Origin: Woeseiaceae bacterium
Lineage (GTDB): Bacteria; Pseudomonadota; Gammaproteobacteria; Steroidobacterales; Woeseiaceae
Direction: 5' to 3'
Length of the DNA stretch: 51,423 nucleotides
NCBI GenBank assembly: GCA_030065985.1
Contig: JASJCM010000007.1
Span: forward strand, 1-51,423
Of this stretch, positions 11,710 to 17,151 are shown one piece after another; within the stretch, counting starts at the first letter, position 1; each line of letters starts with the position of its first letter. The notes below the pieces were generated by a model. That model was given only the letters and a program-made list of their open reading frames with translations, was not told where the DNA came from and did no database searches. The translations under genes were made by a program, and so were the position numbers.

Positions 11710-13680
11710 ATGCGTAAAGACGGACTCAGCCAGAAAGCCTACGTGCCCATTGCCGAAGGCGATTCGTATGACCCCTTTGTGCCGGCGAGCGAGTCGCCAG
11801 CCGAATTCACGTTCAAAGCAGTCGGACTCGGCATCCTGTTCGGCATCATTTTTGGTGCCGCTAACGCCTACCTCGGTCTGCGCGCCGGCCTGACGATCAG
11901 CACGTCGATACCGGTTGCGGTAATGACTGTTGCGGTATTCCGCGCGCTCAAAGGCATGGGTATCGGCGGGACGATTCTCGAGACCAACATCTCGCAGACG
12001 ACCGGCTCGGCATCGAGTTCGCTCGCCAGCGGCGTAATCTTCACACTGCCGGCGCTGTTCATGTGGGGCATGCCGCCTGAACTGTTGCAAATGACGTTGC
12101 TTGCGATGTCGGGTGGCCTGCTCGGCATCCTCTTCATGATTCCGTTGCGCCGTTTCCTGATCGAGCGCGAACACGGCAAGTTGCCTTACCCGGAGGGAAC
12201 AGCATGTGCCGAAGTTCTTGTCGCCAACGAGATCGGTGGCGGCCGCGCGCGCTTCGTCTTCTACGGCCTGGCCGGTGGCGCGTTCTTCAAGTTCCTGACG
12301 TCCTGGATCAATGTCATCCCGGGCGCGATTCACTCGAAGGTCCCGTTCCTGCGCAAAGGTGAGCTTGGCATGGACCTGTCCGCTGCACTCTTCGGCGTTG
12401 GCTATATCCTCGGCCCGAAAATCGCCGCCGTGATGGTCGGCGGCGGTCTGCTGTCCTGGCTCATTATCATCCCGGTGATCGACTACTGGGGCGCAAACCT
12501 GACGGCACCGTTCTACCCCGAGACGGTCAACCTGATTCGCGATATGTCGCCAAGCCAGATCTGGACGCGTTACGTGCGTTACATCGGCGCGGGCGCGGTG
12601 GCAACCGCCGGCATCATCACTCTGATCCGCAGCATCCCTGTCATGGTCAGCAGCTTCAAGATCGGTTCGGCGCAGCTGACCGAACGCATCAGCGAAGGGC
12701 AGGCGGCGCCAGCGGCAGCCGAGCGCACCGGCTCCGATCTGCCGCTCAAGGTTGTGGGCATAGGCGTACTGATTATTGCCTCCGTGCTGGTACTCGTACC
12801 CCAGGTATTCGGCGCTGTCGGCGGCATGGGTATTCGCGCTGCCGCGGCTATCTGTGTTGTCGTCTTCGCGTTTTTCTTCGTCACGGTAGCCTCGCGCATC
12901 GTCGGACTTGTCGGCGTGACCAGTAACCCGACGAGCGGCATGACTATTGCCGCGTTGCTCGGCACCGCATCCATCTTCCTGATGTTCGGCTGGACCGACA
13001 CGATGGGCAAAGCCGCGGCGCTAACGGTGGGTTGTGTCGTCGCTATCGCAGCATCCATATCGGGCGACACCTCCCAGGATCTCAAGACCGGCTTCCTGCT
13101 GGGCGCCACGCCGCGTCGACAACAGACGTCGGAACTTATCGGCGTGCTCACTTCTGCGGTATTCGTTTGTCTCACGGTGCTCGCGCTTGGCAAAGGCTTC
13201 GGCTTCGGCAGCACAGAACTCCCGGCACCGCAGGCGACGCTGATGAAACTGGTTATCGATGGCGTGCTCGACCAGAACCTGCCCTGGGCACTGGTAGCCA
13301 TTGGTGCAGGCATCGCGATCGCTTGCGAACTCGTCAAGATCCCGTCGCTGCCGTTTGCTGTGGGCGTTTACCTGCCCGTCTCGACGATGACGCCGATCTT
13401 CGTCGGCGGTTTGATCCGCCTGTGGATGGAGCGCAAGGCGAAGGACGAGACGCAGGCAGCCAACCGTCGCGAGCGCGGCATTCTGCTCGGCAGTGGCTTC
13501 GTCGGTGGCGAGGGCCTGCTCGGCGTCGGTATTGCGCTGGTCGCGGTCGCGAAGAGCGCGCGGCCGGACGGTATCGGTACGGACTGGCTCGGATCCGAAG
13601 TTGTGGCGATGTTGGTCGGCGCCGCCGCGTTCGCTGTGTTCATCACGTGGTTCTTCCGCATGGTGCGGGGCAACCGCTAG
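11710..13680 (+). CDS. OPT-family oligopeptide transporter
   Basis: A 656-residue polytopic inner-membrane protein of the oligopeptide transporter (OPT) family, with about 15 hydrophobic segments. Family features include GAANAYLGLRAGLTIS near residue 55, the conserved PYPEGTACAEVL segment near 160, and DTSQDLKTGFLLGATPRRQQ near 455. Bacterial OPT proteins import peptides or metal chelates with protons; the substrate here is unknown. It is monocistronic: the ileS leader promoter begins about 20 bp after its stop, and no clear terminator is seen between. Confidence 0.93.
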   Translation: MRKDGLSQKAYVPIAEGDSYDPFVPASESPAEFTFKAVGLGILFGIIFGAANAYLGLRAGLTISTSIPVAVMTVAVFRALKGMGIGGTILETNISQTTGSASSSLASGVIFTLPALFMWGMPPELLQMTLLAMSGGLLGILFMIPLRRFLIEREHGKLPYPEGTACAEVLVANEIGGGRARFVFYGLAGGAFFKFLTSWINVIPGAIHSKVPFLRKGELGMDLSAALFGVGYILGPKIAAVMVGGGLLSWLIIIPVIDYWGANLTAPFYPETVNLIRDMSPSQIWTRYVRYIGAGAVATAGIITLIRSIPVMVSSFKIGSAQLTERISEGQAAPAAAERTGSDLPLKVVGIGVLIIASVLVLVPQVFGAVGGMGIRAAAAICVVVFAFFFVTVASRIVGLVGVTSNPTSGMTIAALLGTASIFLMFGWTDTMGKAAALTVGCVVAIAASISGDTSQDLKTGFLLGATPRRQQTSELIGVLTSAVFVCLTVLALGKGFGFGSTELPAPQATLMKLVIDGVLDQNLPWALVAIGAGIAIACELVKIPSLPFAVGVYLPVSTMTPIFVGGLIRLWMERKAKDETQAANRRERGILLGSGFVGGEGLLGVGIALVAVAKSARPDGIGTDWLGSEVVAMLVGAAAFAVFITWFFRMVRGNR

Positions 13681-13699
13681 GGAGGCGTGCAGAAACTGC

Positions 13700-13728
13700 T
13701 TGTTTTTTAGGCTTTTCCCCGCTAATTT
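13700..13728 (+). promoter_or_regulatory. Putative promoter of the ileS T-box leader
   Basis: TTGTTT (13700-13705), 17 nt, TAATTT (13723-13728). The hexamers are only moderate matches, but the predicted start near 13735 falls exactly at the base of stem I of the T-box, and the region is T-rich. This placement is the main support. Confidence 0.45.
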
Positions 13729-13732
13729 CGCG

Positions 13733-13989
13733 GGCAAGACGCTGATGGGGACGAGTAGGCAGCCCAATCAGGCCTTAGCGACCGGAGGATGGTGAGAGCT
13801 CCGGGCCTGGTCCTGCTGAATATCACCCCGGAGTCGCCAACCGAACCGCGAAGCGCATTAGGCCTGGCCGGCTGGTCCACGAGACGGACGACGGGCCCGG
13901 ATGGCCCATGAGGCGGCTTTGCCGCGAAACCGGGTGGTACCGCGAGATTCTTCGCCCCGGGTGCTTCTGCACCCGGGGCGTTTTCGTTT
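13733..13989 (+). promoter_or_regulatory. T-box riboswitch leader, tRNA-Ile specific, of ileS
   Basis: Tertiary-structure features of a class I T-box are all visible. Stem I: GGGG (13747-13750) pairs with CCCC (13826-13829). The specifier loop has AGTA (13754-13757) opposite GAATATCACC, whose ATC (13822-13824) is an Ile codon. Above it GGCAG/CTGCT pair, then CAGGC/GCCTG, an AG bulge CTTAGCGA (13774-13781), CCGGAG/CTCCGG, and the distal loop GATGGTGAGAG (13788-13798), matching the glyQS pattern. Stem III is GCGGC-TTT-GCCGC (13913-13925). The T-box AACCGGGTGGTACCGCG is at 13928-13944. Antiterminator: CCGGG/CCCGG (13930-13934 with 13956-13960), the 7-nt bulge TGGTACC, GCGA/TCGC (13942-13945 with 13952-13955). 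The bulge TGGT would pair with the ACCA end of tRNA-Ile. The antiterminator and terminator share bases 13953-13960, so they exclude each other. The stem II region (about 13838-13905) was not resolved. Confidence 0.96.
13953..13989 (+). terminator. Regulated intrinsic terminator of the T-box leader
   Basis: CGCCCCGGGTGC (13953-13964) and GCACCCGGGGCG (13969-13980) form a perfect 12-bp stem with a TTCT loop, followed by TTTTCGTTT. Its 5' arm is used by the competing antiterminator, so termination is expected when tRNA-Ile is charged and read-through when it is uncharged. Confidence 0.95.
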
Positions 13990-14001
13990 GAGGTAAGTGT
14001 T

Positions 14002-17000
14002 TTGTCATTCAAAGAAGTAACAGGTCGCTACGACGGTCCGGCCCTCGAGGAAGAGGTGCTGGAGTTCTGGCGCGAGCACGACGTATTCGGTCAGACCATC
14101 GAAGCCACGAAGGACGGTCCGCAGTTCAGCTTCAACGAGGGTCCGCCGACGGCGAATGGCAAGCCGGGCATCCATCATGTGCTGGCGCGTGCGTTCAAGG
14201 ACATCTTCCCTCGCTACAAGACGATGCGTGGCTATCACGTGCCGCGTAAAGCCGGATGGGATACGCACGGCCTGCCGGTCGAGCACGAGGTTGAGAAGCT
14301 CCTGAAGAAACAGGGGCGGATCGCAAGCTACGACAAGGCCGAAATCGAGGCCAAGGTCGGCATCGCCGAGTTCACGCGCCTGTGCCGCGAGTCGGTCATG
14401 ACCTATATCTCCGACTGGGAGGCCATGACGGAGCGCATGGGTTTCTGGGTCAACCTCGACGAGGCCTATTACACCCTCAACAATTCGTTTATCGAGTCGG
14501 TCTGGTATCTGCTTAAGGAAATCTGGGACAAAGACCTCATCTACAAGGGCTACAAGGTTGTCCCCTACGATCCGCGCATCGGTGCGACCCTCTCGTCGCA
14601 TGAGCTCGCGCAGGGATACAAAGAGACCGAAGATCCATCGATCACGGTCCGCTTCAAGGTTAAAGGCGAAGACGACACCTACATTCTGGTCTGGACGACA
14701 ACTCCGTGGACGTTGCCTTCGAACCTCGCCCTCGCGGTCGGCGAGCACATCGACTACAGCTACTGTGAATCCGATGGCCAGACGCTAATCCTGGCTGAGG
14801 CGCTACGCGAGGCCGTGTTCCGCGATATCGAGCACAAGGTCGTCAAGACCGTGAAGGGCTCGGAACTCGTCGGCATGCGCTACGAGCGCCTGTTCGACTA
14901 TCTCGAGGTCGACGCCGAAAACGCCTTCAGCGTCATGGCTGCCGACTTCGTCAGCACCGAAGACGGCACCGGTATTGTGCATACGGCGCCGGCCTACGGC
15001 GTTGACGACCTCGCCTTCGGCCAGGCCAATGGCCTGCCGGTTGTGCACGGCGTGGGTCTCGACGGCAACTTCATCGATGCGGTCGAGCCGGTCAAGGGCC
15101 TGTTCTTCAAGGACGCGGACAAGATCCTCATCCGCATTCTCAAGGACCGCGGCCTGATGTTCCGCTCGGAACGTTATCGCCATAACTACCCGTTTGGCTG
15201 GCGAACCGGCGACCCGATTCTCTACTACGCCAAGAACGCGTGGTACATCCGCACGTCGAAGTTCGCGGAGCGTATGGCGGAGCTCAACCAGACGATCAAC
15301 TGGGTGCCGGAGCATATCCGGGACGGGCGCTTCGGCAACTGGCTTGAGAACAACATCGACTGGGCGCTGTCACGCGAGAGGTTCTGGGGGACGCCGCTGC
15401 CGGTCTGGACCAACGGCGAAGACTTCATGTGCGTCGGCTCGGTCGCGGAGCTCGAAGAACTGACGGGCAGGGAGCTCAGCGAACTCGACCTGCACCGCCC
15501 CGCGGTCGATGAGGTCACGTTCGAGAAAGACGGCACGACCTGGCAGCGTGTGCCGGAAGTTATCGACTGCTGGTTCGACTCGGGCGCGATGTCCTACGCG
15601 CAGTGGCATTACCCGTTTGAGAACCAGGACAAGTTTGAAAAGCACTTCCCGGCCGATTTCATCTGCGAGGCTATCGACCAGACACGTGGCTGGTTCTATA
15701 CGCTGCATGCCATTGCAACGCTCGTCTCTGACAGTGTCGCGTACAAGAACTGCATCTGCCTGAACCTGATCGTCGACAAAGACGGCAAGAAGATGTCCAA
15801 GTCGGTTGGCAACATCATCAATCCCTACGATGTCTTCGATTCGGTCGGCGCGGATGCGCTGCGCTGGTACTTCCTCGCGCGCCTCGCGCCGGATGTTCCG
15901 AAACGCGTGTCGGTCGACATCGTCGCGGACGTCGCGAGCTCGTTCATCAATACATTCTGGAATACCTACGGTTTCTTCGTGCTCTACGCACGTCTTGATG
16001 AGATCGACCTGTCGCAGGACGTTCCCGTTGCCGATCGGCCCGAGATCGACCGCTGGGCGCTGGCCTTGCTGCATGACACGATCACGACCGTCACTGATGC
16101 GCTCGATCACTACGATGCCAAGTTGGCCGGTGAGGCGATCGAGTCGTTTGTCGATCAGCTCAGTAACTGGTACGTGCGACGTAACCGCCGTCGTTTCTGG
16201 AAGTCGACCGATCCCGCGGACAAGCAGGCCGCGTATCTGACCCTGTACGAGTGCCTCAAAGGCGCGCATGAATTGATGGCTCCGTTCGTGCCGTTCCTGG
16301 CCGAGAACGTTTACCAGAATCTCGTGCGCTCGGTAGATCCGGATGCGCTGCCGTCTGTGCACATGGGTAACTGGCCAGACGCCGACCCGTCATGGAAGAA
16401 CGACGAACTGCTGCACAACATTGGCGTTGTGCAAAAGGTCGTCGGGCTCGGACGCGCCGCGCGCAATCATTCGAATGTGCGTACGCGCCAGCCGCTGTCG
16501 CGACTGCTTGTCAGGGCACCGAATGATGCCGCTCTGAAGGCACTCGAGAGCCACCAGGATCAGATACTCGAAGAGCTCAATGTCAAAGCAATTGAGTTCA
16601 TCGCACGGGACGCCGGGCTCGTGAGCTACAACATCAAGCCAAACCTGCCGAAGCTTGGCAAACAGTACGGCAAACTTGTGCCGCAAATCCGCCAGGCATT
16701 ACTCGATGCCGACGGAGCCGCGATCGCAAGCGCGGCTGCGAACGGCGAGGCATTCGAGATCGAGGTTGCCGGGCAGACGATTCCTCTCGAGGGCGACGAT
16801 GTGTTGATCGAGACTCATTCTGCCGAGGGCTATTCCTGCGAGGCGGACTCCGGTTACCTGACCGCGCTCGACACGAGCCTCAACGACGAGTTGCTCGCGG
16901 AAGGACTCGCGCGCGAGATCGTGCGCTCGGTGCAGGACGCGCGCAAGCAGGCCGGCCTCGAAGTGTCGGACCGCATTTCGCTCGGCGTGTCGGGATCTGC

Positions 17001-17151
17001 TGATGTCGAGAGCGCTCTGGCAGTGCATCGCGAGTACGTCATGAACGAGACGCTGGCAACGAGCTGGGAAGTTGGCCAGACTGACGCCCGCTACACCGCC
17101 GATCGGGAGATGGGCGAGCTGACGTGGAAGATCGAGATCAGCCTGAATTGA
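14002..17151 (+). CDS. ileS: Isoleucyl-tRNA synthetase, type 2 (eukaryote-like)
   Basis: Charges tRNA-Ile with isoleucine in the cytosol. At 1049 residues it is longer than the usual proteobacterial IleRS (about 940). It has the type-2 form of the motifs: GPPTANGKPGIHHVLAR near residue 48 (HIGH-like), GWDTHGLPVEHEVEK, the CP1 editing domain with WTTTPWTLPSNLALAVG, FICEAIDQTRGWFYTLH, and KMSKSVGN near 597. A long C-terminal region replaces the zinc tail of type 1. Type-2 enzymes are common in actinobacteria, Chloroflexi and eukaryotes and tend to resist mupirocin. The start is TTG 14002, with GAGGTAAG just upstream. It is preceded by the T-box and is not in the usual proteobacterial ribF-ileS-lspA operon, suggesting the gene and its riboswitch arrived together. 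Confidence 0.96.
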   Translation: MSFKEVTGRYDGPALEEEVLEFWREHDVFGQTIEATKDGPQFSFNEGPPTANGKPGIHHVLARAFKDIFPRYKTMRGYHVPRKAGWDTHGLPVEHEVEKLLKKQGRIASYDKAEIEAKVGIAEFTRLCRESVMTYISDWEAMTERMGFWVNLDEAYYTLNNSFIESVWYLLKEIWDKDLIYKGYKVVPYDPRIGATLSSHELAQGYKETEDPSITVRFKVKGEDDTYILVWTTTPWTLPSNLALAVGEHIDYSYCESDGQTLILAEALREAVFRDIEHKVVKTVKGSELVGMRYERLFDYLEVDAENAFSVMAADFVSTEDGTGIVHTAPAYGVDDLAFGQANGLPVVHGVGLDGNFIDAVEPVKGLFFKDADKILIRILKDRGLMFRSERYRHNYPFGWRTGDPILYYAKNAWYIRTSKFAERMAELNQTINWVPEHIRDGRFGNWLENNIDWALSRERFWGTPLPVWTNGEDFMCVGSVAELEELTGRELSELDLHRPAVDEVTFEKDGTTWQRVPEVIDCWFDSGAMSYAQWHYPFENQDKFEKHFPADFICEAIDQTRGWFYTLHAIATLVSDSVAYKNCICLNLIVDKDGKKMSKSVGNIINPYDVFDSVGADALRWYFLARLAPDVPKRVSVDIVADVASSFINTFWNTYGFFVLYARLDEIDLSQDVPVADRPEIDRWALALLHDTITTVTDALDHYDAKLAGEAIESFVDQLSNWYVRRNRRRFWKSTDPADKQAAYLTLYECLKGAHELMAPFVPFLAENVYQNLVRSVDPDALPSVHMGNWPDADPSWKNDELLHNIGVVQKVVGLGRAARNHSNVRTRQPLSRLLVRAPNDAALKALESHQDQILEELNVKAIEFIARDAGLVSYNIKPNLPKLGKQYGKLVPQIRQALLDADGAAIASAAANGEAFEIEVAGQTIPLEGDDVLIETHSAEGYSCEADSGYLTALDTSLNDELLAEGLAREIVRSVQDARKQAGLEVSDRISLGVSGSADVESALAVHREYVMNETLATSWEVGQTDARYTADREMGELTWKIEISLN

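Follow-up and report, generated by a model that had tools for sequence, protein, structure and literature searches.

Closest Described Systems

T-box leaders of class I, represented in Rfam by the model RF00230, combine a stem I that carries an AGTA/GAA internal loop, a specifier, an AG bulge and a distal loop with stems II and III, a T-box sequence, and an antiterminator set against an intrinsic terminator, and an aminoacyl-tRNA synthetase gene lies downstream. The leader described here is alike in all of these respects, but differs in the class of its host, in a score under the curated cut-off and in its presence as one element per genome. Actinobacterial ileS genes are preceded by class II T-boxes, which are translational and isoleucine-specific and act by sequestration of the Shine–Dalgarno region. 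They have Ile and ileS in common with the present leader, which in contrast has a full stem I and an intrinsic terminator. In Chloroflexota (Anaerolineae), T-boxes precede genes for type 2 isoleucyl-tRNA synthetases (IleRS) with a GXHH motif, as in the window (the stretch of 51,423 nucleotides of a Woeseiaceae bacterium that was analyzed as a whole). However, three Chloroflexota genomes gave 6, 7 and 8 T-box matches, compared to one element per genome in the gammaproteobacteria, and the window IleRS is only ~50% identical to the Anaerolineae enzymes.

Deltaproteobacterial T-boxes are known from leuA of Geobacter and Pelobacter, a group that was then classed as Proteobacteria like the host of the window, although the class and the regulated gene are different (PMC2494555; PMC3766115). 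The surveys place T-boxes in Firmicutes, Actinobacteria, Chloroflexi, Deinococcus-Thermus and relatives of Geobacter, and in the passages considered none from Gammaproteobacteria is named (PMC2494555; PMC3766115). The T-box database comprises 23,535 sequences from the major phyla and 3,632 species; the term “Proteobacteria” is absent from the main text of its description, while its tables may hold unremarked gammaproteobacterial cases (PMC7778990). The statement of a preliminary description of this DNA, that no described gammaproteobacterial T-box was known to it, agrees with the literature covered, to which most subscription papers do not belong.

A Class I T-box Leader Upstream of ileS

The genome of the window (G000) is a draft assembly of 86 contigs and 84% complete. 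A T-box leader lies within positions 13681–14001, the gap between a gene for an OPT-family transporter (11710–13680; PF03169) and ileS, with the leader RNA, including terminator and U-tract, assigned to 13733–13989 of the + strand from the RF00230 match and the terminator prediction. In a covariance-model search run in E-value mode, RF00230 matched 13733–13962 over its full length (model positions 1–219) with 81.9 bits and E = 2.7e-18, so the scoring with this model that the preliminary description proposed gave a significant result. The default Rfam scan of the window reported nothing, because 81.9 bits is below the curated gathering score of 93 bits that serves as annotation threshold. Matches to RF00230 were obtained in 5 of 14 control genomes and passed the cut-off in two of those five. 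As sub-threshold matches thus occur in control hosts where T-boxes are expected, such a score does not disqualify the leader, and the gathering score is treated here as a matter of threshold rather than as a defining biological feature of class I T-boxes.

The individual elements, all on the + strand, were located by the Rfam alignment and by an alignment of related leaders. Stem I (13739–13834) is built from the pairings 13739–40/13833–34, 13747–50/13826–29, 13758–62/13813–17, 13771–73/13805–07 and 13782–87/13799–804, which correspond to helices 1–5 of the covariation analysis. It contains the AGTA/GAA internal loop, an AGCGA bulge and the distal loop GATGGTGAGAG (13788–13798). The specifier is AUC (13822–13824), an Ile codon that is read by the anticodon GAU and that agrees with the downstream gene ileS. 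Stem II, which had been left unresolved in the preliminary description, was found at 13836–13868 (helix 6); it has a GAA/ATTA internal loop, with AGTA in the consensus of the relatives, where its pairs show compensatory changes. The IIA/B region (13875–13907) is predicted to form a hairpin GTCC/GGAC and then a hairpin GGGC/GCCC (helices 7 and 8), and is followed by stem III, GCGGC/GCCGC (13913–13925; helix 9). The antiterminator (13930–13960) pairs CCGGG (13930–13934) with CCCGG (13956–13960), with GCGA/TCGC in addition, and encloses the T-box bulge TGGTACC (13935–13941). Every element that had been named before, from the AGTA/GAA loop, the AUC specifier, the AG bulge and the distal loop to the T-box and the antiterminator, is present at its place.

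The same is true for the 12-bp intrinsic terminator, which lies at 13953–13980 (−29.6 kcal/mol, z −7.8) and runs into TTTTCGTTT at 13981–13989; a terminator scan of 13600–14050 found one, with a mean of 0.8 in shuffles. Positions 13953–13960 belong both to the 3′ arm of the antiterminator and to the 5′ arm of the terminator, which makes the two structures mutually exclusive. With a 12-bp terminator and U-tract, the leader is not a class II T-box, in which a sequestered RBS takes the place of the terminator. When the whole leader was folded as a single sequence, the terminator was obtained but the T-box fold was absent, and for that reason comparative evidence was used for the T-box structure. 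A possible sigma-70-type promoter, TTGTTT-17-TAATTT, lies at 13700–13728 of the + strand; at 6 of 12 consensus positions the match is too weak for a stricter promoter scan, which does not list it.

Conservation and Covariation in Related Leaders

Out of 58 loci scanned for the T-box core, one (L116) was without it. From the remaining 57 leaders, L022, L026 and L056 (no start of stem I found), five duplicates and L030 (start misplaced) were dropped. The 48 leaders that were aligned thus comprise 47 from the genus, together with the close relative L034. The specifier ATC and the bulge TGGTACC are both invariant in all 48. A regular expression applied to the 57 leaders recovered the ATC specifier in 53, and L009, L022, L056 and L185 have ATC too when read by eye. 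In a second group, the order of a metagenome-assembled genome (MAG) labeled Arenicellales, the expression recovered ATC in 18 of 24 leaders, and by eye L124 has it as well.

The pairing of the T-box structure is kept by compensatory change, as 96.1% of the cells in the 48 leaders pair and 27 of the 48 base pairs carry double substitutions. Doubly changed cells number 207, against 66.9 in shuffles, none of 500 shuffles reaches the observed level, and in controls with slid partners the pairing drops to 34–50%. The covariation is carried by upper stem I, stem II, IIA/B and stem III. Within stem I, helices 3–5 covary and helices 1–2 are nearly invariant; both sides have changed in three of the six pairs of helix 6, in all eight pairs of helices 7 and 8, and in all five pairs of helix 9. 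The antiterminator is paired in 100% of the cells and is nearly invariant in sequence. Covariation is of little help for it and for basal stem I, as both show hardly any variation. An outer IIA pair set, CCG/CGG, was left out because it has no double changes.

RNAalifold, to which the structure was not supplied, found upper stem I, stem II (slightly shifted), IIA/B, stem III and GCGA/TCGC, with double changes in 23 of its 45 pairs. It departs from the T-box fold by pairing basal stem I with the 3′ arm of the antiterminator and the specifier strand AUCACCC (13822–13828) with GGGUGGU of the T-box (13932–13938). The latter pairing is possible in nearly all 48 leaders, and its strands are almost invariant. 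Neither of the two pairings was adopted, as the strands are near-invariant and covariation is absent.

At the 5′ side, the pattern TTG-N20-TANNNT occurs 7–10 nt before the aligned leader start in 45 of the 48 leaders. At the 3′ side, a strict script recognized a terminator in 37 of the 48; by eye, most of the rest form hairpins that are long or interrupted, and in L002/L003 the tail is poor in U. The terminator hairpins of L004, L008, L020, L025, L030, L182, L187 and L189 are lengthened by long palindromes, which were apparently inserted near the loop with the hairpin kept. These palindromes resemble MITE insertions.

Proposed Mechanism

Altogether, what precedes the type 2 ileS of this gammaproteobacterium is very probably a complete class I T-box leader, which likely acts as a transcription switch that responds to uncharged tRNA-Ile(GAU). 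The observation itself is confirmed, and its earlier reading as a class I T-box controlling ileS is supported. The expected behavior of ileS is carried over from the known T-box mechanism, the parts of which are present in the window. With ample isoleucine, tRNA-Ile would be charged and would not stabilize the antiterminator, the 12-bp terminator would form, and transcription would stop before ileS. Uncharged tRNA-Ile would pair its anticodon GAU with the AUC of stem I and dock its elbow on the distal loop of this stem, while its ACCA end would pair with UGGU and hold the antiterminator, allowing ileS to be transcribed. By analogy, the binding of the tRNA, the ON/OFF response and tRNA-dependent read-through may all be expected of this leader.

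On the side of the tRNA, one tRNA-Ile(GAU) read from the same genus has a 3′ end A-CCA, which is complementary to the UGGU of the bulge. Exact matches to a second tRNA search pattern gave tRNA-Ile(GAT) in 2 of the 73 genomes of the genus, one of which (G561) is without a T-box match; this pattern found no tRNA-Ile in the 84% complete genome of the window. A first tRNA pattern was rejected, as it matched only at places bearing CATAA, and the three that were checked are tRNA-Met.

Distribution of the Leader

The search for the same leader in related genomes, suggested in the preliminary description, showed it to be a property of the genus: exactly one RF00230 match was obtained in each of 62 out of 73 genomes, with scores of 38–104 bits, and the match is over the gathering cut-off in 7 of the 73. 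In a set of 37 genomes of the genus, 32 carried the T-box. By coordinates, ileS lies directly 3′ of the match in 31 of these 32; in the remaining one (G034), the contig ends 415 bases past the match. Five of the 11 genomes without a match were inspected. In G008 and G013, ileS is present and a T-box match upstream of it is absent. G031 (L113) carries a remnant leader, which by eye has lost its middle, so that the start of stem I runs directly into the antiterminator and a terminator that is intact. G035 is cut by a contig end, and in G017 no full ileS was seen.

Among the other families of the window’s order, none of 23 genomes has a T-box, and neither have the genomes of L038 and L039, which are more distant relatives. 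A draw of 369 genomes from the class gave matches only in the window’s genome and in one more of the genus, and a draw of 398 genomes from the phylum gave the window’s genome and one 26-bit match; the filters are stricter whenever more than 40 genomes are searched, so that weak matches are lost. The order of the Arenicellales-labeled MAG (G436) has T-boxes in 39 of 100 genomes, and the family of UBA7447, a genome among those 100, in 24 of 33. This is taken as a second order, distinct from that of the window, because none of its 100 genomes is among those listed for the window’s order.

Some further arrangements were encountered in the course of these searches. An Arenicellales MAG (L042:1600–2501) has a T-box followed by a glutathione-S-transferase-like gene and then ileS, and the T-box may control this two-gene unit. 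A 0.9-Mb genome from the phylum of the window (G775; L192:1628–1864) has a short T-box-like element, GGGTGGCACCGCG, between a tRNA-Thr gene and aspS, with an RF00230 score of only 26 bits. SAH riboswitches (RF01057) over the cut-off are located downstream of ileS at L037:7065–7145 and L038:5732–5814, the former following an S-adenosylmethionine synthetase gene.

Host, Type and Origin of the Synthetase

Assignment of the host to the Gammaproteobacteria rests on the labels given by submitters and is in keeping with the gene neighborhood. The nearest named relatives of the IleRS come from MAGs labeled Chromatiales, Woeseiaceae, Gammaproteobacteria, Acidiferrobacteraceae, Arenicellales or Proteobacteria, their best segments being 62–94% identical (top 80 of at least 590 candidates). 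The NCBI taxonomy places both Woeseiaceae and Arenicellales in the Gammaproteobacteria. Six of the labeled MAGs coincide with genomes of the genus by contig number and T-box match coordinates (L031 = G550, L032 = G021, L033 = G549, L035 = G551, L040 = G006 and L055 = G029). The genome of the window moreover carries a murJ-ribF-lspA neighborhood as in the sister families of its order, and labels and neighborhood agree with the gammaproteobacterial host assumed before. A comparison of an rRNA operon of the genus with that of E. coli (83.4% similarity) is too coarse for class placement and was discarded.

The ileS gene (14002–17151, + strand) starts with TTG and encodes a type 2 IleRS of 1049 amino acids (TIGR00392, 930 bits; PF19302). 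The enzyme scores 802 bits with the MupB model, 794 with MupA and 304 with ileS_w_GNAT, compared to 269, 296 and 1184 bits, respectively, for the native IleRS of a sister family, which has the FPG zinc finger. Both the match to the type 2 family and the altered HIGH motif identify the window enzyme as type 2. At residues 56–59, the class I signature HIGH is replaced by GIHH. Among the proteobacterial relatives in the clade, the motif was read in 12, which do not include L040 and L041, and it is GIHH in each of them. The GXHH motif in IleRS has been linked to strong mupirocin resistance, i.e., hyper-resistance (PMC10485003). That mupirocin resistance was a force favoring the replacement of ileS is speculation.

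A tree of IleRS sequences was computed with a quick LG+G4 model from 78 rows, i.e., the window and 77 of the best 80 of at least 590 candidates, the partial sequences L035, L040 and L041 being left out. The window and 11 rows of Pseudomonadota form one clade at 100*, which joins Chloroflexota and one cyanobacterium at an SH-aLRT of 92 that is not starred, in a tree with open forks. Of the 17 Chloroflexota rows that make up the nearest large clade, 14 carry the T-box core in the 1.5 kb before ileS; for L046, a row of this clade, the upstream sequence amounts to only ~200 bases. One more sequence with a gammaproteobacterial label, the type 2 IleRS of an Oceanococcus MAG (L074), falls away from this clade, among Rhodothermota, and a search of that genome gave no T-box match. 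Having the enzyme and no T-box, this MAG indicates that type 2 ileS can enter the class without the leader and, if the bin is clean, is apparently a separate entry.

Probable Replacement of the Native ileS

In all five sister-family loci (G044, G045, G049, G050 and G058), the gene order is ribF-ileS1-lspA. This native operon would likewise supply an IleRS; unlike the window enzyme, its product is type 1 with an FPG zinc finger. In all 11 T-box genomes examined, nine of the genus (G000, G001, G005, G015, G021, G022, G023, G027 and G029) and two of the second group (G431 and G436), ribF adjoins lspA, and tblastn found no ileS1 in the ribF-lspA stretch. The ribF and lspA families were confirmed for G000, G027, G029, G431 and G436, and in G000 the two frames are contiguous, position 1434 of L213 being the last of ribF and 1435 the first of lspA. 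Furthermore, no genome has two IleRS over the cut-off among the matches listed. Because ileS1 is missing from ribF-lspA and no second IleRS is among these matches, the ileS behind the T-box appears to be the sole IleRS gene of G000, a genome that is 84% complete.

Replacement of the native gene by a foreign-type IleRS is well supported. The larger story thus goes beyond the preliminary description, as the switch belongs to this foreign-type enzyme that replaced the native one. As the type 2 IleRS groups with Chloroflexota, where T-boxes lie upstream of the gene, and the native ileS is absent from its operon, an essential gene was likely replaced by a synthetase that had passed from one phylum to another along with its tRNA-sensing leader. 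The simplest reading would be such a joint transfer, with T-box and ileS2 acquired together before the loss of native ileS1; the candidate donor can be described only as Chloroflexota-like.

Alternative Explanations

The draft state of the genome and the Chloroflexota affinity of the closest IleRS outside the clade could suggest that the contig is Chloroflexota DNA mis-binned within a gammaproteobacterial bin. This is highly improbable, as tens of genomes from the genus share the arrangement, the OPT transporter upstream is 93–96% identical in L031, L040 and L055, and the native ileS is gone from its operon; both the moderate identity to Anaerolineae enzymes and the single T-box per genome, compared to the several of the three Chloroflexota genomes, argue against it as well. 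Gammaproteobacteria use leader-peptide attenuation for amino acid operons, and a terminator is present here, but that the leader represents such classical attenuation of the enterobacterial type is hardly credible: the leader ATG in TGATGGG is kept in 25 of the 48 leaders, the 16-codon frame in the window is by eye without Ile codons, and a covarying T-box architecture would be superfluous for control of this kind.

The presence of T-boxes both in the window’s genus and in the order of the Arenicellales MAG could also mean that Gammaproteobacteria had the element from the start, with losses elsewhere, instead of acquiring it. Its absence from all 23 genomes of other families in the window’s order and, with strict filters, from the class draw of 369 outside the genus, together with a type 2 IleRS that groups with Chloroflexota while the native operon of the sister families still encodes a type 1 enzyme, makes this very unlikely. 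It is also unlikely that the leader is a decaying passenger that arrived with ileS and has lost its response to tRNA. The remnant in G031 and the genomes G008 and G013 without a match do indicate that loss of the T-box is tolerated, and the spread of scores within the genus points in the same direction; against this stand the compensatory changes in 27 of 48 pairs, the identical specifier and bulge in 48 leaders, and promoter-like hexamers kept in the same place in 45 of them.

Possible Altered Output in the UBA7447 Family

In 22 of the 24 leaders read by eye from the UBA7447 family, the hairpin that follows the antiterminator in the 3′ part has no U-run after it (L137, L162, L167–L169, L171–L174, L232–L242, L244 and L245). 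A GCGCGA motif is found just before the start codon in the 15 analyzed leaders of this family (L238 and L239 repeat L137). The antiterminator 3′ strand can pair with the sequence preceding the start codon in 59 of 72 pairs from 12 distinct sets, against a shuffled mean of 56.2 (p = 0.09). As this covariation test is not significant, sequestration of the start codon is put forward only as a hypothesis. An extended antiterminator does covary in this family (65 of 72, p = 0.0002, relatedness not controlled), and the output of these leaders may be translational.

Significance

The known element is found here in an unexpected class of hosts, as T-boxes are usually taken as a Gram-positive-type device. 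As a whole, the chain of events in which a T-box and a type 2 ileS crossed phyla and displaced ileS1, the sole IleRS came to answer uncharged tRNA through RNA alone, and the UBA7447 family swapped the terminator for a likely translational platform close to the start codon while keeping the full class I stem I, is a tentative proposal that falls somewhat short of probable. The annotation cut-off hides most members of the clade, with only 7 of 73 genomes passing it. The case bears on the replacement of a native gene by a synthetase that brings its regulator along, and on changes in the output domain of riboswitches. It also offers a natural test of whether a large RNA regulator functions with the polymerase and the tRNA pool of another phylum. 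The gammaproteobacterial lineage concerned is tens of species wide and has its one listed IleRS placed behind a T-box switch.
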